DNA from: Thermococcus thioreducens
GTDB taxonomy: Archaea; Methanobacteriota_B; Thermococci; Thermococcales; Thermococcaceae
NCBI RefSeq assembly: GCF_002214545.1
Contig: NZ_CP015105.1
Location: 1,922,001 to 1,986,000 of the forward strand
Reading direction: 5' to 3'
Length of the DNA: 64,000 bases
Position numbers and translations under genes: made by a program. The notes beneath the pieces were generated by a model, which was given only the letters and a program-made list of their open reading frames with translations, ran no database searches and had not been told where the DNA came from. Positions within the stretch are counted from its first letter, which is position 1, and the number at the start of each line of letters is the position of its first letter. Below, in pieces: positions 8,527 to 63,518 of the stretch.

Positions 8527-8543
8527 TATCATCGGCGGTGATA
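8527..8543. promoter_or_regulatory. Thermococcales Glycolytic Motif upstream of fbp
   Basis: TATCAT-CGGCG-GTGATA matches the consensus TATCAC-N5-GTGATA with one change. It lies just upstream of the fbp TATA box. In this order the regulator Tgr (TrmBL1) is known to activate gluconeogenic promoters upstream of TATA and to repress when bound downstream. Confidence 0.8.
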
Positions 8544-8548
8544 TTAAC

Positions 8549-8565
8549 GTTTTATAAGTATAAAA
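8549..8565 (+). promoter_or_regulatory. TATA box of fbp
   Basis: The AT-rich GTTTTATAAGTATAAAA directly follows the glycolytic motif and lies about 30-45 bases before ATG 8594. Confidence 0.65.
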
Positions 8566-8593
8566 GTGCTTAAAAGCCATCGAGGTGATTGCC

Positions 8594-9721
8594 ATGGCAG
8601 TTGGAGAGAAGATAACGATCAGCGTTATAAAGGCCGACATCGGCGGCTGGCCGGGACATTCAAGGGTTCATCCCCAGCTCGTTGAGACTGCGGAGGAGGT
8701 TCTTGCGAAGGCTCAGGAGGAGGGCACGATAATCGACTTCTACGTCGCCACCTGCGGCGATGACCTTCAGCTCATCATGACTCACAAGAAAGGTGTCGAC
8801 AGCTCCGAGATCCACGGCCTGGCCTGGAAGACCTTTGAGGAGGCCACGAAGGTCGCCAAGGGGCTCGGGCTCTATGGGGCTGGCCAGGACCTTCTGAAAG
8901 ACGCATTCAGCGGCAACATAAGGGGAATGGGGCCGGGGATAGCCGAGATGGAGATCACCCTGAGGAAGAGCGAGCCGATAGTGACCTTCCACATGGACAA
9001 GACCGAGCCCGGGGCTTTTAACCTTCCGATATTCAGGATGTTCGCGGATCCCTTCAACACCGCTGGACTGGTTATTGACCCCAACATGCACATGGGCTTC
9101 CGCTTTGAGGTCTGGGACATAAAGGAGCACAAGCGCGTTATCCTCAGCACTCCCGAGGAGCTCTACGACCTCCTCGCCCTCATCGGAGCCAAGAGTCGCT
9201 ACGTCATCAAGAGGGTCTTCCCCAAAGAGGGACACAAAATCCCGAAGGACGAGCCGGTCGCCGTCATAAGCACCGAGAAGCTCTACGAGATAGCCGGCGA
9301 GTACGTTGGAAAGGACGACCCTGTGGCCATCGTCAGGGCCCAGAGCGGTCTCCCGGCCCTCGGAGAGGTTCTTGAGCCCTTCGCATTCCCGCACCTTGTA
9401 AGCGGCTGGATGAGGGGTTCACACAACGGCCCGGTGATGCCTGTTCCGATGCACATGGCCAACCCGACCCGTTTTGATGGCCCGCCAAGGGTCGTTGCCC
9501 TCGGCTGGCAGATAAGCCCCGAAGGAAAGCTCGTCGGCCCGGTTGACCTCTTCGATGACCCTGCCTTTGACGGGGCCAGGCAGAAGGCTCTGGAAATAGC
9601 GGAGTACATTCGCAGGCACGGCCCGTTCGAGCCCCACAGGCTCCCGATGGAGGACATGGAGTACACCACCCTCCCTGGAGTCCTGGAGAAGCTCAAGGAC
9701 AGGTTCGAGCCCGTCGAGTGA
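8594..9721 (+). CDS. fbp: Fructose-1,6-bisphosphate aldolase/phosphatase
   Basis: A 375-residue bifunctional gluconeogenic enzyme that condenses triose phosphates to fructose-1,6-bisphosphate and then dephosphorylates it. Family features are the N-terminal ISVIKADIGGWPGHSRVHP, the metal-binding CGDDLQLIMTH, and the C-terminal RGSHNGPVMPVP and FDGPPRVVALGWQ. ATG 8594 has the ribosome binding site GAGGTGAT; the eight codons before it in the open frame are not used. A glycolytic motif sits upstream of its TATA box, consistent with activation under gluconeogenic conditions. Confidence 0.96.
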   Translation: MAVGEKITISVIKADIGGWPGHSRVHPQLVETAEEVLAKAQEEGTIIDFYVATCGDDLQLIMTHKKGVDSSEIHGLAWKTFEEATKVAKGLGLYGAGQDLLKDAFSGNIRGMGPGIAEMEITLRKSEPIVTFHMDKTEPGAFNLPIFRMFADPFNTAGLVIDPNMHMGFRFEVWDIKEHKRVILSTPEELYDLLALIGAKSRYVIKRVFPKEGHKIPKDEPVAVISTEKLYEIAGEYVGKDDPVAIVRAQSGLPALGEVLEPFAFPHLVSGWMRGSHNGPVMPVPMHMANPTRFDGPPRVVALGWQISPEGKLVGPVDLFDDPAFDGARQKALEIAEYIRRHGPFEPHRLPMEDMEYTTLPGVLEKLKDRFEPVE

Positions 9722-46931: not shown

Positions 46932-47089
46932 TTTAAACACCAAAGTTTAACACGGTGCTGAAGATTAAAAAGTTTTTCTCAAAATGCCGGCCAGAACGCT
47001 GAAGCGCCCGGGAGGCGCGCAGGAGGTAGAGCTCCAACGAAGAGGAACCCACAGGTTCAAAGCTCTCAGAAAAGTCCGCAGAATTCTGG
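46932..47089. other. Non-coding gap before the integrated element
   Basis: I see no gene in this stretch. It holds the Tfx promoter on the minus strand and chromosomal flank of the tRNA-Tyr att site. Open frames here are short and lack ribosome binding sites. Confidence 0.4.
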
Positions 47090-47134
47090 TGGTCCCGCGG
47101 CCCGGATTTGAACCGGGGACCTGCGGATCTACAG
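47090..47134 (-). other. att site: 3' half of a tRNA-Tyr (GUA) gene
   Basis: Read on the minus strand this is CTGTAGA (anticodon loop, anticodon GTA), stem TCCGC, variable AGGTC, T arm CCCGGTTCAAATCCGGG, acceptor strand CCGCGGG, discriminator A and CCA. The five bases before the loop are ACTCC..., which cannot pair with TCCGC, so the 5' half is absent and homology stops at the anticodon loop. That is the expected core of an SSV-type integration; the intact gene should be at the far end of the element. Confidence 0.85.
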
Positions 47135-47962
47135 GGGAGTAAAACGCTAAACGAACTGTGGGCACGCTATAAAGGCGAGTTTGAGGAATGGCTCTCAATC
47201 TCAAGAAAAGTGAGCGAAAAAACAAGGAAAGACTACATGAAAGCGCTCAGTTACTTCTTTGTCCGCTACACCATAAAGACGGGCCCGGACATAAAGAAAT
47301 TCTTGGATAAGGAGGGCAACAAGAGGAACATAGCAAATGGTCTGAGGGTCTTTTTGACATTCCTTGCGGAGAGAGATTACCTCGACTATGACATTGCAAT
47401 GATAATCAAAAAGCGCTTCATCAAGGCGAGGCAGGTTGGCGTTAAGAGGATTTATATCACGGATCAGGAGCTCAAAGAGGCTTATGAGGAGGTCAAAAAG
47501 CGTGGGTTCAAAAAGCAGCTACTCTTTGAGCTCTTGGTTTTCACGGGACTGAGGCTCACACACGTGGTCGAGCTCATGAACACCTACGAGCCCGATAATC
47601 TTTACATCGTGAATGACAAAATTGCCCGCTATCCTCTCATGATTGTTGATAGGGGCAACAAGAAGGCGTATTGGGCTTACATGCCTCTTGAGCTGGCAAA
47701 GAAGCTCACGAGGATGAAAGTCAACTATAAGAGTGCTCAAGACTGGCCGCAGTATAAGAAAGTCTCCGCAGCCACGATAAGGAAGTGGTTCACGACTTTT
47801 CTCGCAAGACGGGGTGTGAGTGCTGAGGTCATCGACTTCATTCAAGGCCGTGCTCCTCGCTCCGTGCTCGAAAGGCATTATCTCAATCTAACTGTTCTTG
47901 CAGACGAGGCGTATTCTCGGGTGGTTGATGAGTTGAAGAAGGTGCTGGAGGGTGAGCTATGA
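47108..47962 (+). CDS. SSV-type integrase, C-terminal fragment (int-C)
   Basis: A tyrosine recombinase of 284 residues as read from TTG 47108. Its first nine residues are translated from the tRNA att sequence, in frame, as in partitioned archaeal integrases where attP lies inside int. Catalytic candidates are R149 (FTGLRLTHVV), R225 (ATIRKW), R248 (QGRAP) and nucleophile Y258 (RHYLNL). The N-terminal fragment should remain at the other end. In the circular form the two halves would be one gene. The 3' end overlaps the next small gene (ATGA). Confidence 0.88.
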   Translation: MNRGPADLQGSKTLNELWARYKGEFEEWLSISRKVSEKTRKDYMKALSYFFVRYTIKTGPDIKKFLDKEGNKRNIANGLRVFLTFLAERDYLDYDIAMIIKKRFIKARQVGVKRIYITDQELKEAYEEVKKRGFKKQLLFELLVFTGLRLTHVVELMNTYEPDNLYIVNDKIARYPLMIVDRGNKKAYWAYMPLELAKKLTRMKVNYKSAQDWPQYKKVSAATIRKWFTTFLARRGVSAEVIDFIQGRAPRSVLERHYLNLTVLADEAYSRVVDELKKVLEGEL

Positions 47963-48367: not shown

Positions 48368-48431
48368 GGGCTGAGCCGGCAGGGCGGGCACGCCCGCGGC
48401 GATGAGGCCCGGCTGAAAACCTCCGCGGAGG
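48368..48431 (+). promoter_or_regulatory. Structured leader before the LamG gene
   Basis: Between promoter and start codon are about 150 untranslated bases. GGGC (48368) can pair with GCCC (48407), flanking UGA/GAUGA, which looks like a box C/D-type kink turn, then GCCG with CGGC and GGGCG with CGCCC around the loop GGCA. Next, the palindrome CCTCCGCGGAGG (48420-48431) contains the ribosome binding site GGAGG, which could be hidden in a hairpin. The function is inferred. Confidence 0.45.
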
Positions 48432-48440
48432 GATGTGGAT

Positions 48441-50216
48441 GTGATCCGGAAGAAAGCACTCGGCGTTTTGGTAGTGGCTCTTTTCCTCGCCAGCATAGCG
48501 GGAGCGGCGAGCGCTGCAACTCTGGATTTGCCGAAGTGGGTCATCGTGCCTGAGGACAGCACTTTCAGCGACGTGACGTTGTTCTGCGGGCTGGACGCGT
48601 ATGATGCAAGCACGAACACGACGCCATGTTTTTTGAGAGGCAATGCTACATCTGCGAGTATCGTGAATGCTTTAGGCGCCACGTTGGTGGTGGGTAGGAT
48701 AGGAAACGCAATTGAACTCACAGGGACATCAGCAACCGCATCGGCGCTAACATCTCCGACAATTGACGTGGCGATTTCTGAAACATACACAAGCTCGATA
48801 TCCTTCGCAGTCTGGTTGAAGATTCTCGATAGAACTGACCTGAGATCCATAATGCAGTTGAAAACTGCGAATGGAGTGGTGAAGATTTATTGGCCTGCTG
48901 GAAGTGAATTTTCAATAGGGTACACTGACGTCGCAAGGAATTGGAGGAGTATACCTGTTCAATCGCAAATCGACGATGGAAATTGGCATTTCATTGTTGT
49001 GAATTTTATCATGGATGGTGTCAGAAACACGACGAGGATACAGGTATATATTGATGCAAGTGTTGCACTTGATGTTGAGAAAATAGGTGTGCCAGTCAAC
49101 GACTTTACAGTTTTTGAGTTATTCCAGAACAACAACGTTGGCAGAGTCGTCTATGATGAGGTGCGAGTGAAAATCGACGGAGTATTTACCCAAGACGAAA
49201 TCAAGCTCCTCTACCTCGCCGGTCGCAAGAAGCTCTCCGAGCCCGCGAACTTCCGCCAGATTTTCAGCCCGCTCATAGACCTCACTCGCGATCGTGCGAC
49301 CTTCTATGCTGGCCTGGAGGTCAGCACGAGCAACCCCTCGGGCTACGTGCCCGTGCCGGAAAGCGCCGTGAACATGAGCATCACCAGCGCCCCACGCCTG
49401 AAGTCCGACTACACCAATGCAGACTTCTACTACCAGGGGCACTACTGGTATCAGGCGCAGAAAATCCAGTTCAACCTGCCGATCCAGTTCGAGACCGTCC
49501 GCGAGCAAGGCGGCTTCTCGAAGGAAATCCTTCTCGACGAGGACAAGAAGACGTTCGTCTATGAAAAAGAGTTCAAGGTCACGAACCCCACCGCCGCCCG
49601 CCTGAACGTCATCTATTCTGTCGACCCCACCGCGCTCGGCTTCTCCGTGCTCCAGTTCCCGCAGTTCGAGCTGGACGGCATCAACATGGTCAGCTGGCAG
49701 CCGCAGAACTCGACATCATTGTATCTCATCCGCACGGACACGCTTGAGCCCGGCGAAATCAGCATGCACTGGATCAAGAGCATCTGGACAATCTCAAAAG
49801 AAGAGCTGGAGTTCCCGGCGAAGCTGGAAGACTTCCGCAACATCCTCGACTGGCAGACAGCGCAGAAGCTCGCCGAGAACGCCGCAAAGGGCAAGAGCGA
49901 CACGTACGTGAGGGTCATCAAGATTGACAGCAACGCCGACGTGAGCAATGTCACTGTTCTCGTCCCGCTCAAGGACGTCGAGGACGAGAGCGACGTGGTT
50001 GAAGCCGTCGCCCTGACCGGCTCAAGAGAAACATTGCAGGTCGAGAAGCTCGAAGACGGCAAGATAGTCGTCAAGGTGCCCGCTGATGCATTCGTAAGCG
50101 GGCATGCGGAGATCAAAGTATTCTACAACAAGGAAACGTCCTGGTGGAAGTCGATTCTCGACAAGATCCGCTCGCTCATGGCGAAGATCAAGGCGATGTT
50201 TTTCGGGGGTGGCTGA
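48441..50216 (+). CDS. Exported LamG/concanavalin-A-like domain protein
   Basis: About 591 residues. A signal peptide (LGVVALFLASIAGAASA-like, residues 5-26) is followed by a LamG-type jelly roll, about 30-265, with the hallmark DDGNWHFIVVNF and a C-terminal DEVRVKIDGVFTQDEI. A second beta domain follows (about 270-480), then a threonine/valine-rich segment, and an amphipathic end (WWKSILDKIRSLMAKIKAMFF). GTG 48441 is preferred over GTG 48435 for spacing to GGAGG. LamG proteins are known from Pyrococcus virus PAV1, where they may be surface or attachment proteins. Confidence 0.82.
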   Translation: MIRKKALGVLVVALFLASIAGAASAATLDLPKWVIVPEDSTFSDVTLFCGLDAYDASTNTTPCFLRGNATSASIVNALGATLVVGRIGNAIELTGTSATASALTSPTIDVAISETYTSSISFAVWLKILDRTDLRSIMQLKTANGVVKIYWPAGSEFSIGYTDVARNWRSIPVQSQIDDGNWHFIVVNFIMDGVRNTTRIQVYIDASVALDVEKIGVPVNDFTVFELFQNNNVGRVVYDEVRVKIDGVFTQDEIKLLYLAGRKKLSEPANFRQIFSPLIDLTRDRATFYAGLEVSTSNPSGYVPVPESAVNMSITSAPRLKSDYTNADFYYQGHYWYQAQKIQFNLPIQFETVREQGGFSKEILLDEDKKTFVYEKEFKVTNPTAARLNVIYSVDPTALGFSVLQFPQFELDGINMVSWQPQNSTSLYLIRTDTLEPGEISMHWIKSIWTISKEELEFPAKLEDFRNILDWQTAQKLAENAAKGKSDTYVRVIKIDSNADVSNVTVLVPLKDVEDESDVVEAVALTGSRETLQVEKLEDGKIVVKVPADAFVSGHAEIKVFYNKETSWWKSILDKIRSLMAKIKAMFFGGG

Positions 50217-50267: not shown

Positions 50268-51599
50268 ATGAGGTGGAAAAAGCCCCTTGGGCTGTTTGTA
50301 GCCCTGGTTTTGGTCTTTTCCGTCTTTGCCGTAGTGAGGGCAGCGACCATTACCAACGTGACGTGGGAGAATGCCATCACCGATCCAGGAATTGAGCTGA
50401 TAGCCGGAACAAACGCCACCCTCAACGTTACAATACTAACCAGCTCCGGAGACCCATTTGCCCTTAGCAGCTACACGAACGCCGACCTGCTTGAGGTAAC
50501 AGCGAAGTTCGTCGATGAGTATGGAAACGCTTTGGACATGAATGGTGACAACAACGCCGACATCTACACCCTCACCAACACCAGCACTCCGGGCCTATGG
50601 ACGGGAACAATCTCAATTGGCAATGTTACTCCTGGAGAGTACACCCTCAAAATCGAAGCCCTCGCCAAGAACAGCACTACCAATACAATAGTAGATAACG
50701 CCACCATGGAGCTTTCCGTCTGGATTGCCGGTGGGCCCTATTGGGTCAGCGTGGCTGATGTCAAGGATGGCGATACTATCGAAATCGGAAACCTGCAGTT
50801 TACCATAAGAGGGCTCTCCGAGCTTGGCGCAATACTCGACCTTGGAAACCTGACTACACAAACAATAACTGACTCTGACAGGGATGGTTTCTTCACTTGG
50901 CAGTATGATGTTACAAATGATGGGGCTAATGACTGGATAGTCTTCACAAAGAGCAATGATGACAGTGATAGGTACATCTTGATGATCTATTCAAGCGATG
51001 CGAACCTCCTTGACAGCTTCAATCTGACTGGTGATTTCGAAGTAAGGAGCTCTGACGGAAGAATCACGTTCAGAAACAAGGTTTTCAAGAACTACAACAC
51101 GTACAAGGCTTATGTTGTTTGGGACGAGTCATGGTTGGCAAAGCTTGGAATCAAAGCAGTTGACTATTACATCATTCCACTGAGAGGAAGAGAGCACTGG
51201 AGAGAGGGTATGGGAAACGTTGAAAGAACAGATATCAAAGTGATTAAGAGAACCACATACGCGTGGGGTCTTTTTGGTAGTGAAGAGGAAGTCTACAGTG
51301 GTAACATCTTCAACAAGAAAGTAAACGTCGACAATGTTCTCACTGTATTTGGAAAGTGGGTCGGAAATTGGGCGTACTTTGCAAGAGGGCTATGGGAGAT
51401 CAGGACTGGCCTTGGTGACATTACAATTCCAAACACATACAGCTTGAGAGAAAGAAACCTGAACGAGCTTAGCGTTTCAAGTGAAGACTTCAGAGGATTC
51501 AATCCAGTCTTACAACCAGAAGGAAGAGGGTTCTTCAAGCCAAACCTCGATTGGGCTAACCTCCTCGGCCTTGAAGACGAGGAGTCCAGCAGCTCTTAA
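50268..51599 (+). CDS. Exported beta-sandwich protein, paralogue 1
   Basis: A 443-residue exported protein with signal peptide (LFVALVLVFSVFAVVRA). Domain 1 (about 25-155) is Ig-like and carries GNALDMNGDNNADIYT and STPGLWTGTISIGNV. Domain 2 contains DSDRDGFFTW and TNDGANDW, which look like calcium-binding loops. A C-terminal region holds LAKLGIKAVDYYIIP. It aligns along its whole length with the protein at 62196-63518. The middle part of the gene is more AT-rich than its surroundings. ATG 50268 has a GAGGTGA ribosome binding site. No database family recognised. Confidence 0.78.
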   Translation: MRWKKPLGLFVALVLVFSVFAVVRAATITNVTWENAITDPGIELIAGTNATLNVTILTSSGDPFALSSYTNADLLEVTAKFVDEYGNALDMNGDNNADIYTLTNTSTPGLWTGTISIGNVTPGEYTLKIEALAKNSTTNTIVDNATMELSVWIAGGPYWVSVADVKDGDTIEIGNLQFTIRGLSELGAILDLGNLTTQTITDSDRDGFFTWQYDVTNDGANDWIVFTKSNDDSDRYILMIYSSDANLLDSFNLTGDFEVRSSDGRITFRNKVFKNYNTYKAYVVWDESWLAKLGIKAVDYYIIPLRGREHWREGMGNVERTDIKVIKRTTYAWGLFGSEEEVYSGNIFNKKVNVDNVLTVFGKWVGNWAYFARGLWEIRTGLGDITIPNTYSLRERNLNELSVSSEDFRGFNPVLQPEGRGFFKPNLDWANLLGLEDEESSSS

Positions 51600-55840: not shown

Positions 55841-55981
55841 ATGGTCAGCCGGAAAGTGTACCTCAAACGGAAGCGGGAGATACTGCACAGAGTGCTCACG
55901 AACATCCAGAAAGAGCTCGCGCGGGTGAACCGCGAGCTGAAACAGCTTGAGAGAGGTGATGAGCGTGGAACCCGCTCCTGA
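55841..55981 (+). CDS. 46-residue basic coiled-coil peptide
   Basis: A charged helical peptide (VYLKRKREILHRVLTNIQKE, then ARVNRELKQLERG) with GGTGAGGAGG five bases upstream of ATG 55841. It overlaps the start of the next gene. Probably a cytoplasmic partner of the membrane proteins around it. Confidence 0.6.
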   Translation: MVSRKVYLKRKREILHRVLTNIQKELARVNRELKQLERGDERGTRS

Positions 55982-56876
55982 ACCTGAGATTCGCGAGGAT
56001 ATCCGCGCCGAGCTCGCGGCAAAGGTCGAGAATAAGAACGAGAACAGGCAGAGGTTCTGGAGGTTGGCCATCACCTTCATCGGCAGCCTGCTCGGCTTCG
56101 GCCTCGTGGCCTACGCCGCGCCAGGATTCTACGACACCCTGCTCTCCATTCACGAGAGCCTCGCCACGCCCCGCTACAGCTTCTACGTCCTGGTGGGCTC
56201 GATTGCCTTCGTCGAGTTCATGAGGATGACATGGGTCGAGTCAGCCAAGGCCAGGAGCAAGAGGCTCATCCCTCTGACCTCGCCAGAGACGGAGATTTGG
56301 GTCAAGGAGAAGCCGCTCATTGGGCTCAAGCTTCCGTTCACGAACCGCGAGATCAAGAACAAGAGGATAAAGCCCCACATCGTCGAGACGGAGTTAGGTT
56401 GGAGAGTCTATCCAAACAGGTCCCTCCTCTCGCCGCAGTGGAACGGCGAGATATACTTCATCCCCTACGATTCCATCCACGGCTACGGCAACACGAGGAT
56501 CATCAGCGCCAGGAAGCCAAGCCAACCGACCTACTACGAGACCGATCCAATCACAGGCGAGGCAATTCCCGTCTACGTGTGGGAGCCGATCGACCTCGGT
56601 GAGGAGAAATACATGAGAGCGCAGAAGGAAATCGCCTACCTCCAGGCAGAGAACCGCATCCTCCAGGAGTACGCCGCCAGGGGCTACGAGCTGGCCAAGA
56701 CAATCAGCCAGATCCCGCAGGAGTTCTTCGAGGAGCTCTCCAACAGAGGCTTCGAGAAGGCAAAGCAGATCCTCGACATCATGGGCAAGGGCTTCTTCAG
56801 CGAGGTCGGGAAGATCAAGAAGGAGGAAATCTCCGCGATTTTGGAGGCAATCAAGAAAGACCGCGAGGCCTGGTGA
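55965..56876 (+). CDS. 303-residue membrane protein with cytoplasmic domain
   Basis: A protein with two N-terminal membrane helices (about 30-55 and 78-95) and a long hydrophilic remainder containing VKEKPLIGLKLPFTNREIKN and a C-terminal helical region from about 215 (AQKEIAYLQAENRILQEYAA). The start is GTG 55965 or ATG 55959; the former is better spaced from GAGGTG. It may be the membrane platform that contacts the ATPase encoded at 57610. No family recognised. Confidence 0.72.
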   Translation: MEPAPEPEIREDIRAELAAKVENKNENRQRFWRLAITFIGSLLGFGLVAYAAPGFYDTLLSIHESLATPRYSFYVLVGSIAFVEFMRMTWVESAKARSKRLIPLTSPETEIWVKEKPLIGLKLPFTNREIKNKRIKPHIVETELGWRVYPNRSLLSPQWNGEIYFIPYDSIHGYGNTRIISARKPSQPTYYETDPITGEAIPVYVWEPIDLGEEKYMRAQKEIAYLQAENRILQEYAARGYELAKTISQIPQEFFEELSNRGFEKAKQILDIMGKGFFSEVGKIKKEEISAILEAIKKDREAW

Positions 56877-56878
56877 TC

Positions 56879-56890
56879 CTTTCGTTTTTC
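56879..56890 (+). terminator. Terminator-like block, copy 2
   Basis: CTTTCGTTTTTC three bases after the stop codon, identical to 53600-53611. Confidence 0.5.
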
Positions 56891-56904
56891 AATTTCGCCC
56901 ATAA

Positions 56905-57012
56905 GGGGGATCGAGCCGCGAGTAGGGGTTCCGAAAGCGGTTCGTCCCCGTGGAGCCGGCCCGTGTGGGCCGAAAAAGGCCGCGAGGTGATCAAGTCAAG
57001 ACGTGACTTGAT
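56905..57012 (+). ncRNA. Structured intergenic region (candidate RNA, operator or origin)
   Basis: A gap of 191 bases is full of dyads. GGGG..CCCC with inner CGAA/UUCG spans 56924-56948; CGGCCC-GTGT-GGGCCG spans about 56957-56972; ATCAAGTCA-AGACG-TGACTTGAT is a perfect 9+9 inverted repeat at 56990-57012; the octamer GCCGCGAG occurs twice (about 56914 and 56979). It could be a structured 5' leader, a small RNA, the operator of the downstream winged-helix gene or a replication origin. No TATA box is convincing. Confidence 0.5.
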
Positions 57013-57067
57013 GGCTTGAAGGACGCGTATCGGGAAAATCACACATTCCGAAACAGGAGGTGGAAAG

Positions 57068-57613
57068 GTGGCGAACGGGTTAGCTTTGGGTAGATTTGAA
57101 TATATTTCGCGTTTGAAGGCCGAAGCGGCCGAGGATGGCGAAGCCAAGTATCTCGACCTTGCCCTTTCTCTCATGGAAAAAGCGGCGCAGCTCGAGGAGG
57201 AGATGGAAAAGGTCCCCGGCATCTACAAGGAGAAAAAGCTCGAAATTGCACTTTCAGCGATAGAGCAGTACAAGCAGGCGAACGAGCTCCTCATCAAGGC
57301 GATTCTTGTCGGCGAGAGCGCCGAGATGGCGCTGAGGAAGCTCGAAAGAATGCTGAGCGCGAGGGCAACGCTGAGGACGAAAATCATCGCGGCCCTCTAC
57401 GGCGAGACTGAGCCGGTCGGCCCCTCTGAGCTCGCCGAGAGGTTTGGCATTTCAACGCAGGCCGTCCACCAGGCTTTGCAAGAGCTCGACAAGCTCAAAG
57501 TCGTGGAGAAAGACGAAAAAGGCCGGTACTCCCTCCGGCCCGGCGTGATGGACGAGGTGTTTCGGCTTCTCTGGCAGAGCGTGGCTGAGCTGAAAGCGAG
57601 GGGAGCGATATGA
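57068..57613 (+). CDS. Winged-helix DNA-binding protein with helical N-terminal domain
   Basis: A 181-residue protein. Residues 1-110 are helical and charged (EEEMEKVPGIYKEKKLEIAL). Residues 115-175 form a MarR/IclR-like winged helix with PSELAERFGISTQAVHQALQ and a wing KVVEKDEKGRYSL. GTG 57068 follows GGAGGTGG. It overlaps the ATPase gene and sits downstream of a perfect 9+9 inverted repeat that could be its operator. Confidence 0.8.
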   Translation: MANGLALGRFEYISRLKAEAAEDGEAKYLDLALSLMEKAAQLEEEMEKVPGIYKEKKLEIALSAIEQYKQANELLIKAILVGESAEMALRKLERMLSARATLRTKIIAALYGETEPVGPSELAERFGISTQAVHQALQELDKLKVVEKDEKGRYSLRPGVMDEVFRLLWQSVAELKARGAI

Positions 57614-58863
57614 TGTCTGCTTATCTCGACCGCTTCGTCGTCCAGCCCAAAGAATTCCAGATCGACCAGCCACGGACCCACGCCGTGGGCCTCACCCGCG
57701 GGAAAAACTTCGTCTATGTCTCTGCCGACATGGTACACCGGTATATTTCTGGACAGACCAACGCGGGAAAAACAACCCTCGCGCAGACTCTCATGGAGGT
57801 GGACTTCCTCCGCGGACGGAAAATCGTCGAGATAGAACCTGCGCTAGAGGCTAAAAACGAGAGGGCATTCATGAACCTGCCGAACGATGACGACGGCATG
57901 CTTGAGGTTCTCAACAAATACTTCCACCTTGAGCCGAGGCCCTTCAAGGCCATCGTGTACTCGCCAGCGACGCGGAAGTACCGTGCTTTCATGAAGAACG
58001 ATGAGGGAATCCGCTCAAAGTTCTACAAGTCGCTCAAGATCACCGAGCCCGACGTGGTGGACCTCATCCTTGCGATTTTTCCAGGTGGGTCCATCGAGAG
58101 ACTCATCATCAACAAGGCATACAAGAAATACACCGAAGAGATCAGACCAAAGAGGAAAGAGCGCTCTATATCCGAGTTCCTGGAGGTCTTTGAGGAAGTT
58201 GGAAAAGAGGCAAACTTCAGCAGTTTCACCCTCCTCAAGCTCGAGTATATAGCAAGCGTTCTTCACAGCGACGGCAAGCACAAGATAGATGAGATTCTCA
58301 AAAAGAAAGACGAGATAAGCGTCTTCACATTCACATTCATCAGAGATCCCCTCGAAAGGTACCTGTGGGCCATGGCCATTCTCAACATTATCTATGACAG
58401 GTGGGAGTACCTCAAGCGGAAAGAAGATATTCTGAGCTTCTATGTAGCAGATGCTCATCTATTAGCCCCAAAGAAGAAGAAAGACATGATCGACACACTC
58501 GCAAGATACCAGGAACGCATGAAGCAGAACTTACAGGTCTACTCGAGAATCTCGCGAGGAAAAGGACTATTGTGGACATTTGATAGTCAGGAATTTGACG
58601 ACCTGGATGACGTTGTAGTGGCACAGTGTCAGGAGCGCTTCATCAAGCGCATGAGGAACCGCGACGTCGCCGAGAAGCTGAAGATTGACTACACAGAACT
58701 GAGACGCCTGGACAAGAAGTTCGCCTTCTTCGATGACGGCTATATGGTGAAGAAAATCCTCGTCAGGCCACCCATGTCGAGAAAAGCCCGCTCCGGAGAA
58801 TTCCTCCCGATTCATTTCGTCAAGGAGTACAAAAGGTGGGAGAATGAGGAGGCGAATTATTAG
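57610..58863 (+). CDS. HerA/FtsK-like P-loop ATPase
   Basis: A 417-residue ATPase. Walker A is GQTNAGKTT (K54), followed by VDFLRGRKIVEIEP as in HerA/FtsK/VirB4-type enzymes. The Walker B region is LSFYVADAHLL near 278, with Asp then Ala-His instead of the usual Glu. A sensor-like LWTFDSQEFDDL follows. It may pump DNA into particles or power a membrane assembly. It overlaps its neighbours on both sides. Confidence 0.78.
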   Translation: MMSAYLDRFVVQPKEFQIDQPRTHAVGLTRGKNFVYVSADMVHRYISGQTNAGKTTLAQTLMEVDFLRGRKIVEIEPALEAKNERAFMNLPNDDDGMLEVLNKYFHLEPRPFKAIVYSPATRKYRAFMKNDEGIRSKFYKSLKITEPDVVDLILAIFPGGSIERLIINKAYKKYTEEIRPKRKERSISEFLEVFEEVGKEANFSSFTLLKLEYIASVLHSDGKHKIDEILKKKDEISVFTFTFIRDPLERYLWAMAILNIIYDRWEYLKRKEDILSFYVADAHLLAPKKKKDMIDTLARYQERMKQNLQVYSRISRGKGLLWTFDSQEFDDLDDVVVAQCQERFIKRMRNRDVAEKLKIDYTELRRLDKKFAFFDDGYMVKKILVRPPMSRKARSGEFLPIHFVKEYKRWENEEANY

Positions 58864-62195: not shown

Positions 62196-63518
62196 ATGAA
62201 AGCGGCGGCCCGGGCCATTGTAGTTTTGTTTTTGACATTAAGTTTAATTATTCCAAAAGTGACGACAGCGGCCACCATAGACATCAGAGATACCAGTGAG
62301 GACAACGGCGGCCTAGTCCTTATCTCTAACGAGACATGGGAAAGCATTGTCCGCATCCTCACCTCCAACGGAGAACCATTCAGCCTCTCCAACATTCCAG
62401 GTGCTACATCAATCAACGTGAGCGCCCGCTTTGTGGATGACACTGGAAACACTCTAGACATGACCGGCGATGGAATATCAGATGTTTGGATGTACTCTGA
62501 GGACAGCTCAACGCCAGGACTCTGGAGGGCTAACATCACTCTCGGCAATGTAGAACCAGGTATTTACACCCTAAAAATAACCGCAGTTGCCAAAGATAAT
62601 ACCAGCCAGATACTCGATCAGGCAGAATTAACTGAAGAAGTATTTGTACTTGGTGGTCCATATGTAATACAGTTCTTTAATGTGAAAGACAATGAACACC
62701 TTGAGTTAGGGAATCTTGAGATCAGAATTGGAGCTCTAAGTGACCTCGGAAGCATCATCAGCATTGGGAATCTCACCAACACCTTGACCATAAAAGACAA
62801 TAACCACGATGGAATTTGGGGACAGAGGATCGATTTAAACAATGACGGGACTTTTGATGGATGGATAACATTCCTCAAAAACGAAAACAGTTATGATATG
62901 GTGTTTTTCTCGAACAATGCAACACTTCTGGAGGCGTTAATGCCACAGGAGTCTTTTAAAATCTCCGGAGACACTATAACATTTACTAACCGCATCCTGC
63001 GGGAAACCAGGGATTATAGAAACTTCAACTATTATACCCAAATATTATGGGATACAAGTCTGCTTGCAAAACTCGGTATAAAGGCAGTTGACTATTACAT
63101 CATACCATACTCCACTAACGACAACTGGAAAATTACACAATTCTGGAACGGCCGTATCCTGGCTGCGGTGATGAAGGTCAAAATTATCAAGAGAACATCA
63201 TACCTCGGGCTCTTCAGCGGAGAGGAGGTCATTCTCGATGGAAATATCTGGACTCCAACCACGAAAAACGTCGATGAATTAACCCTCAAACCAAAGGCAA
63301 TATTGTGGTCCTGGTACAGGAATAGAGGCGAAGGCGTCATCTGGAAGGCTGCAGTTGATATCACTGCCCCAAGCCACTATGCCATAAAGTCCAGACAGGG
63401 CTGGTCAGCAACGGAATTCCGTGGAGACAATCCGCTTGACGGCCTTAACTGGCTGAGCCGCCAGTTAAGTAAAGATAAGATAGACTGGTGGAAACTCCTC
63501 GGAGGTGATGGAGAATGA
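62196..63518 (+). CDS. Exported beta-sandwich protein, paralogue 2
   Basis: A 440-residue paralogue of 50268-51599 with a signal peptide (VLFLTLSLIIPKVTTAA). Shared blocks are GNTLDMTGDGISDVWM, STPGLWRANITLGNV, PGIYTLKITAVAKD, a calcium-loop-like KDNNHDGIWGQRIDLNNDG (two DxNxDG motifs), and LAKLGIKAVDYYIIP. The identity over these blocks is high, the rest moderate. It is more AT-rich than its paralogue. ATG 62196 has the ribosome binding site CGGAGG. Confidence 0.78.
   Translation: MKAAARAIVVLFLTLSLIIPKVTTAATIDIRDTSEDNGGLVLISNETWESIVRILTSNGEPFSLSNIPGATSINVSARFVDDTGNTLDMTGDGISDVWMYSEDSSTPGLWRANITLGNVEPGIYTLKITAVAKDNTSQILDQAELTEEVFVLGGPYVIQFFNVKDNEHLELGNLEIRIGALSDLGSIISIGNLTNTLTIKDNNHDGIWGQRIDLNNDGTFDGWITFLKNENSYDMVFFSNNATLLEALMPQESFKISGDTITFTNRILRETRDYRNFNYYTQILWDTSLLAKLGIKAVDYYIIPYSTNDNWKITQFWNGRILAAVMKVKIIKRTSYLGLFSGEEVILDGNIWTPTTKNVDELTLKPKAILWSWYRNRGEGVIWKAAVDITAPSHYAIKSRQGWSATEFRGDNPLDGLNWLSRQLSKDKIDWWKLLGGDGE

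Follow-up and report, generated by a model that had tools for sequence, protein, structure and literature searches.

The window, as we call the whole 64,000-nucleotide stretch of DNA analyzed here, is part of a single-contig genome (G000) of 2,065,932 bases and includes part of a provirus-like element of ~29.5 kb. The element is of the TKV1/pAMT11 type, and the Thermococcales genome carries it integrated at tRNA-Tyr. Its ends are marked by two copies of a 55-bp direct repeat, at 47080 and at 76568 (in coordinates that run on beyond the end of the window), the second of which overlaps a tRNA-Tyr gene. The C-terminal part of the integrase is encoded at 47108-47962 (PF16795); from an open reading frame (ORF) and a match to TKV1, we infer that the N-terminal part is located at the opposite end of the element. 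The core of the element, from 48435 to ~63955, is largely collinear with the plasmid pAMT11 and with TKV1 of genome G024, which we take to be T. kodakarensis KOD1. TKV1 is reported to extend from TK0073 to TK0105 (PMC8155482). A paralogous gene pair in the element (50268-51599 and 62196-63518) matches one and the same pAMT11 gene and has two counterparts in TKV1. The C/D RNA sR22 is also found within the window.

We focus on the gap that separates a gene for a membrane protein from a downstream pair of genes, winged-helix and ATPase, all on the + strand. The upstream gene (55947..56876) encodes a conserved protein that appears by eye to be membrane-anchored and has no Pfam match; it was found in 7 of the 94 family genomes and 7 of the 115 phylum genomes. 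In genome G001, the copy of this core gene (L052, G001:C9:164404-165315) contains one in-frame TGA and thus may be decaying, with the pairing of the adjacent RNA intact. Downstream, 57068..57613 encodes a winged-helix protein of 181 aa (Pfam HTH_11 and MarR_2, both above the cut-off), with a Shine-Dalgarno sequence read at 57055..57062. Solved winged-helix regulators match its sequence over this domain, which also weakly matches a PHROG named 'replication protein' (E 1.2e-5, 66 residues) as well as one named transcriptional regulator. A low-confidence structural model (mean pLDDT 68) yields weak MarR/ArsR-like fold matches, none of which reaches E 0.001 against PDB folds. The pAMT11 homologue (L040:8941-9692) is split over two overlapping annotated ORFs, likely a frameshift or an annotation fault; in the same record, ORF 8540-8944 overlaps its neighbour. 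The second gene of the pair (57610..58863) encodes a P-loop ATPase in which the Walker A motif GQTNAGKTT is seen in the sequence; it has no Pfam match, and a profile search against PDB gave one uninformative match (E 0.0077).

Structure and conservation of the intergenic RNA

The gap is an outlier in predicted folding among the 12 non-coding gaps marked in the element, with a z of -4.09 (60 shuffles), the other 11 gaps ranging from -2.24 to +0.27 (two gaps longer than 320 bases were represented by their first 320). A first-pass annotation had noted dense secondary structure here, with at least three hairpins, and this is borne out: none of 200 dinucleotide shuffles folds as well as the gap itself (z -3.81), and the two perfect hairpins singled out at the time, CGGCCC-GTGT-GGGCCG and the 9+9 hairpin ATCAAGTCA-AGACG-TGACTTGAT, are present at 56957-56972 and 56990-57012, respectively. 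The octamer GCCGCGAG does occur twice, as had been reported, at 56915-56922 and 56979-56986; this repeat is probably a coincidence because it is not conserved in the aligned copies: none of them keeps the first octamer, and the second persists in G048 and G001 alone. The largest structural piece, P1, had gone unnamed.

The putative RNA spans 119 nt of the + strand (56897..57015) in the arrangement P1-P2-linker-P3. P1 (56899..56953) is a long bulged stem that can be drawn in all seven available copies, with compensatory changes. It consists of P1a (56899-56902/56950-56953), a bulge of 3 nt in the 5' strand (AAG, 56903-56905; across the seven copies AAG, AAA, AAA, AAT, AAA, AAA and GAA), P1b (56906-56910/56945-56949), a 1-nt bulge (56911; 1-2 nt among the copies) and P1c (56912-56918/56938-56944). 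The stem is capped by AGTA-GG-GGTT-CC-GAA (56921..56935; consensus AGTAGGGRTYCCGAA), which reads AGTA-GG-GRTY-CC-GAA in the seven copies and is invariant except at the R and Y positions. The sarcin-ricin or bulged-G motif is defined by AGUA opposite GAA, in an internal loop between helices, and by sequence the cap resembles it in every copy. P2 (GGCCC-GTGT-GGGCC, 56958..56971) keeps 5 of 5 pairs in all seven copies; its arms and the 2-bp stem of the cap never vary, so that covariation neither supports nor contradicts P2. Between P2 and P3 is a segment complementary to the 3' tail of the host 16S rRNA (GAGGTGATC, 56984..56992), which includes GAGGTGA, at a distance of 59-65 bases from the cap across the copies. 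In P3 (56990..57012), the sequence of the arm varies (ATCAAGTCA, ATTAGGG, TTGGCGT, TTCGGG) and pairing is kept in seven of seven copies, with both-side changes in five of the seven modelled pairs. Between the upstream gene and P1 lies a terminator-like T5 tract (56885..56889); the longest T run at this place is 4-6 in all seven copies and 3 in pAMT11.

Three further features were considered and rejected. A kink-turn, the site bound by L7Ae, requires a bulge of 3 nt and, directly after it, tandem sheared G.A pairs; by eye, neither at the P1 bulge nor around P3 is there a tandem G.A, and the P1 bulge is followed by Watson-Crick pairs in all copies. Also by eye, the cap loop (GRUUC) could form a pseudoknot with a GAAUC farther downstream in some copies, but not consistently. 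An outer stem around P3 (P4; GGCC/GGCC in G001, GGUC/GGCC in G093) appears only in some single folds, in a different register in the window copy and G090, and is not claimed.

Seven elements, that of the window included, carry the RNA at the same place, and the others of the 115 genomes gave no match. DNA and winged-helix protein searches of the 94 family genomes led to the region in G048, G001, G090 and G093 (72-84% DNA identity to the window over the matched part), and the regions of G024 (TKV1) and G029 were reached through the winged-helix protein match. An eighth, weak protein match (G044, E 7e-4) has no adjoining RNA match. The covariance model R1, made from the window and the four nearest copies, assigns 123.9 bits to the window copy, itself one of the five model sequences, and finds the RNA of TKV1 (G024 72611-72725) and of G029, neither of which is in the model, at 48.6 and 50.8 bits, respectively (E 7e-11 and 2e-11). 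Across the 94 genomes, R1 gives 17 matches at E<=1, 7 of them at E <1e-8 and 10 at E 0.2-0.96; six of these ten share a score of 15.0 bits and the same model span, two of the six being 23S rRNA by Rfam and the other four near-identical in sequence. The model R2, made from all seven copies and run with stricter filters, detects 7 of the 115 phylum genomes at E<=0.1. The RNA, the upstream gene and the ATPase (found in 7 of 94 genomes) occur in exactly the same seven genomes (the ATPase was sought in 94 and the others in 115).

Searches of wider collections returned little. Rfam at the gathering score has nothing at the site in the window, the other six copies or pAMT11, and one weak match nearby (12.1 bits, 57085-57144). 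IMG/VR protein scans found no relative. A 16-base pattern occurred in nine IMG/VR contigs, in eight of which the model match is confined to 16-32 positions within the P1 hairpin, with a best score of 17.5 bits (E 0.0087, in L044 and L045); in contig L041, no P2 or P3 follows the P1-like hairpin. A search of genome contigs retrieved two loci, both already among the known copies, and protein searches of phage and plasmid collections retrieved pAMT11 only. The plasmid DNA search returned 35 records, none covering 80% of the query, and the 20 listed are short matches with E 0.6-7. Gene order around the site is largely the same in pAMT11 and TKV1, but TKV1 has the whole RNA whereas pAMT11 shows, by eye, only P2, GGAGGTGA and a hairpin, with no AGTA cap and no significant score against the model (7.2 bits on the + strand, 7.4 on the -). 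No description of the RNA was found in the literature searched, and it is apparently undescribed.

The covariation expected of homologous elements, if the structure is real, was found in P1 and P3. In alignment A7 (seven copies fitted to R1), 17 of 29 pairs have both-side changes, in 38 cells compared with 10.8 in shuffles, 99.5% of 203 cells are paired (80.9% in shuffles) and the covariation score is 0.631 versus 0.211; none of 500 shuffles is as high on any of the five measures. A3 is an unfitted, plain MAFFT alignment of five copies. There, 145 of 145 cells are paired, both-side changes occur in 11 of 29 pairs, and 0 of 500 shuffles are as high on four of the five measures; on the fifth, further pair types, the value is 16 against 14.6, and 136 of 500 shuffles are as high. 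When partners are slid, pairing falls to 32-52% in both alignments, and swapping arms between copies leaves 49-75% for P1a, P1b, P1c and P3 (own-arm pairing being complete by construction). RNAalifold applied to A7 predicts 33 pairs, 19 with both-side changes, and a covariation term of -7.65; applied to A2, a plain seven-row alignment whose outer stem seems misaligned for TKV1 and G029, it predicts 35 pairs, 10 with both-side changes, and a slightly unfavourable term of +2.23.

Single-copy folds recover the inner P1 stem in all seven copies (the base differs in G001), P2 in five (not in TKV1 and G029) and P3 in six (not in G090). Both strands fold unusually well, with z of -2.8 to -6.6 for the + strand and -1.9 to -5.8 for the complement, which is the lower of the two in two of the seven copies (G001 and G029). 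The stems in the fitted alignment A7 contain 10 G.U cells and 0 A.C cells, a bias that favours an RNA of the + strand over DNA or the other strand. All three + frames contain stops in all seven copies, and no minus frame is open in all seven; the RNA thus appears as non-coding. We consider it very probable that 56897-57015 is a real conserved RNA. Of the three proposals made in the first-pass annotation, the undescribed structured RNA is upheld by the compensatory changes and the lack of an Rfam match at the gathering score, whereas the replication origin and the operator fare poorly, as discussed below.

Segments resembling ribosomal RNA

An exact match of 8-9 nt to the 3' tail of 16S rRNA (CTCGATCACCTCCT in the host) is found in eight of eight copies, pAMT11 included. 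Taken alone, this match is modest, as 8 nt is attained by 38 of 2000 shuffled versions of the window copy. The motif GAGGUGA is near-fixed in its place between P2 and P3; by eye, a start codon at the proper distance is not a feature of all copies. The predicted mean pairing of GAGGTGA is 0.35-0.99 at 37 C and 0.26-0.63 at 85 C across the seven copies (0.75 and 0.43, respectively, in the window), and the prediction clearly masks it only in G029, leaving its openness uncertain.

The cap also resembles a hairpin of the host 23S rRNA, presumably H13, in which AGUA again lies opposite GAA (UGCCGUGAGUAGGGGCGACCGAAAGCGGCA, compared with GCCGCGAGUAGGGGUUCCGAAAGCGGU in the RNA described here), although the loop is CGA in the 23S hairpin and UU in the cap. 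The 23S hairpin is the third-best R1 match in its own genome. Because its score is only 15.0 bits (E 0.99), below that of a chance R1 match inside a coding gene (15.5 bits), we regard this resemblance as a lead and not as evidence of descent.

Candidate functions

In agreement with the first-pass annotation, there is no clear TATA box: the best match to the TTTAWATA 8-mer is 6/8 in each of the seven copies (5/8 in pAMT11), and a score of at least 6 is found for 180 of 400 stretches of 230 bases taken at random from the window. Because there is no TATA box above this background and no T run after P3, and because the winged-helix gene starts 55 nt 3' of P3 with its own Shine-Dalgarno sequence, an intercistronic leader is the simplest reading. 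We give roughly an even chance to the RNA being a cis-acting leader of the winged-helix/ATPase mRNA that exerts post-transcriptional control. With no promoter or terminator of its own in evidence, it would be transcribed with the operon, belonging to the stretch of mRNA that links the upstream gene to the winged-helix/ATPase genes, and would act in cis. P1 with its sarcin-ricin-like cap could then be the recognition module for a protein of the host or of the element, and GAGGUGA the output, either accessible to 16S rRNA or hidden by base pairs around P3, its state setting the translation or the stability of the winged-helix/ATPase message.

The RNA lies directly upstream of the winged-helix gene in seven of seven elements, the fixed position that a cis-acting leader calls for. 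However, synteny does not distinguish a cis leader from a separate RNA, because the core of these elements is largely collinear. The Shine-Dalgarno sequence of the winged-helix gene itself, ~70 nt downstream of GAGGTGA, also weighs against a leader, and transcription may stop short of the RNA at the conserved T tract immediately 5' of P1. Among the closest known systems are the archaeal mRNA leaders with L7Ae-bound kink-turns; these are likewise structured RNAs before a coding region that are proposed to act on translation and, like the RNA described here, contain an rRNA-type motif (PMC5539422, PMC6298567). That motif is a kink-turn, whereas here it is a sarcin-ricin-like cap with no kink-turn seen.

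The main rival to the leader reading is that the RNA acts in trans as a small RNA of its own, either cut out of the operon transcript or initiated at a promoter that escaped recognition. The compact, stable fold of the + strand would suit such an RNA, the T tract on its 5' side would isolate it from the upstream message, and the downstream gene has a Shine-Dalgarno sequence of its own; against it stand the missing TATA box and 3' T run, as well as the invariable place next to the winged-helix gene, and we consider it rather unlikely. An attenuator working through a leader peptide is improbable. The GTG in GAGGTGA (56987) would start an ORF that runs through P3 and stops after 10 codons in the five near copies, 14 in TKV1 and G029 and, by eye, 11 in pAMT11, but this GTG overlaps the sole Shine-Dalgarno-like segment there, the peptide is conserved no further than the near copies, and such short ORFs are common by chance.

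The other readings are less probable still. That the site functions as DNA, as a replication origin or another single-stranded hairpin site, is suggested by the occurrence of hairpins within a mobile element, by the weak match of the winged-helix domain to a PHROG named replication protein and by the precedent of the haloarchaeal virus SNJ2, whose Rep-Arvir origin is also a hairpin beside an inverted repeat (PMC13107129). The SNJ2 hairpin, however, is a DNA origin downstream of rep (same source), whereas here the pairing is RNA-like and no rep gene is recognised beside the gap; the origin of pAMT11 is placed upstream of its rep gene by earlier work cited in that paper (PMC13107129), and the pAMT11 Rep has no match in the element. 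The 10 G.T cells in the stems would be mismatches in DNA, the AGTA/GAA cap is conserved, and the gap lies near the maximum (57615), not the minimum (70933), of the detrended cumulative GC skew, so we hold this reading to be quite improbable. An operator for the winged-helix regulator, with the 9+9 inverted repeat of P3 as its binding site, seems at least as improbable: the perfect repeat does adjoin the winged-helix gene, but its sequence changes freely with the pairing kept, the opposite of what is expected of a protein-DNA operator, and no promoter is seen on which it could act. By analogy with the packaging RNA of phages, the RNA might be a structural cofactor of a machine driven by the ATPase encoded just downstream, a far-fetched option that the strict co-occurrence of the two in the same seven genomes would fit, but the upstream gene co-occurs equally strictly, and neither PDB nor Pfam gives an informative match for the ATPase.

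To our knowledge, hardly any structured regulatory RNA is known from the viruses and plasmids of archaea. The RNA has strong comparative support and is present in TKV1 of a tractable model, Thermococcus kodakarensis; should it prove to be a leader sensing the ribosome or a protein, it would demonstrate that an archaeal mobile element is controlled post-transcriptionally.

A probable second leader and accessory genes of the element

A second, likely structured leader (48369-48431) precedes the lectin-like gene of the element core (48435-50216; concanavalin-like lectin domain, PF13385). It contains GGCYGAG ... CGATGAGGCC, which by the kink-turn rule are the sequence elements of a kink-turn (48369-48408). 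These elements are found before the lectin-like gene in five of seven elements (the window, TKV1, G029, G048 and G001) and are absent from G093 and G090; in G029, the kink-turn is doubtful because the helix between the elements would have only about two pairs. The gap as a whole has a folding z of just -1.41 in the window, and three weak Rfam matches, two of them to C/D-box RNAs. A palindrome, CCTCCG(CG)GAGG (CCTCCGCGGAGG, 48420-48431), lies over the Shine-Dalgarno sequence of the lectin-like gene and can, as predicted from its pairing, mask it; this palindrome is perfect in seven of eight records, pAMT11 included, and imperfect in G093.

L7Ae binds kink-turns in archaeal mRNAs and regulates in this way the translation of its own message (PMC5539422). 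Together with this precedent, the second leader renders translation control plausible as a theme of this element and adds slightly to the case for a leader at 56897-57015. A bolder proposal, which we regard as a long shot, is that the leaders of the element imitate rRNA, one with the H13-like hairpin and the 9-nt anti-Shine-Dalgarno complement (56897-57015) and the other with the kink-turn (48369-48408), and gauge the state of the host from its free ribosomes or ribosomal proteins, thereby timing the structural genes. Lectin proteins are reported to be core genes of the spindle-shaped viruses of Thermococcales (PMC12934983), and therefore a virion for this element is worth checking.

Toward the far end, beyond the window, the element encodes a DpdA-like protein (L083:12662-13441, 74661-75443 in continued window coordinates; PF23859, E 1e-20), of a family linked to 7-deazaguanine in DNA. 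Near it lies a gene for a Cas4-like/PD-(D/E)XK nuclease (L083:11445-12104).
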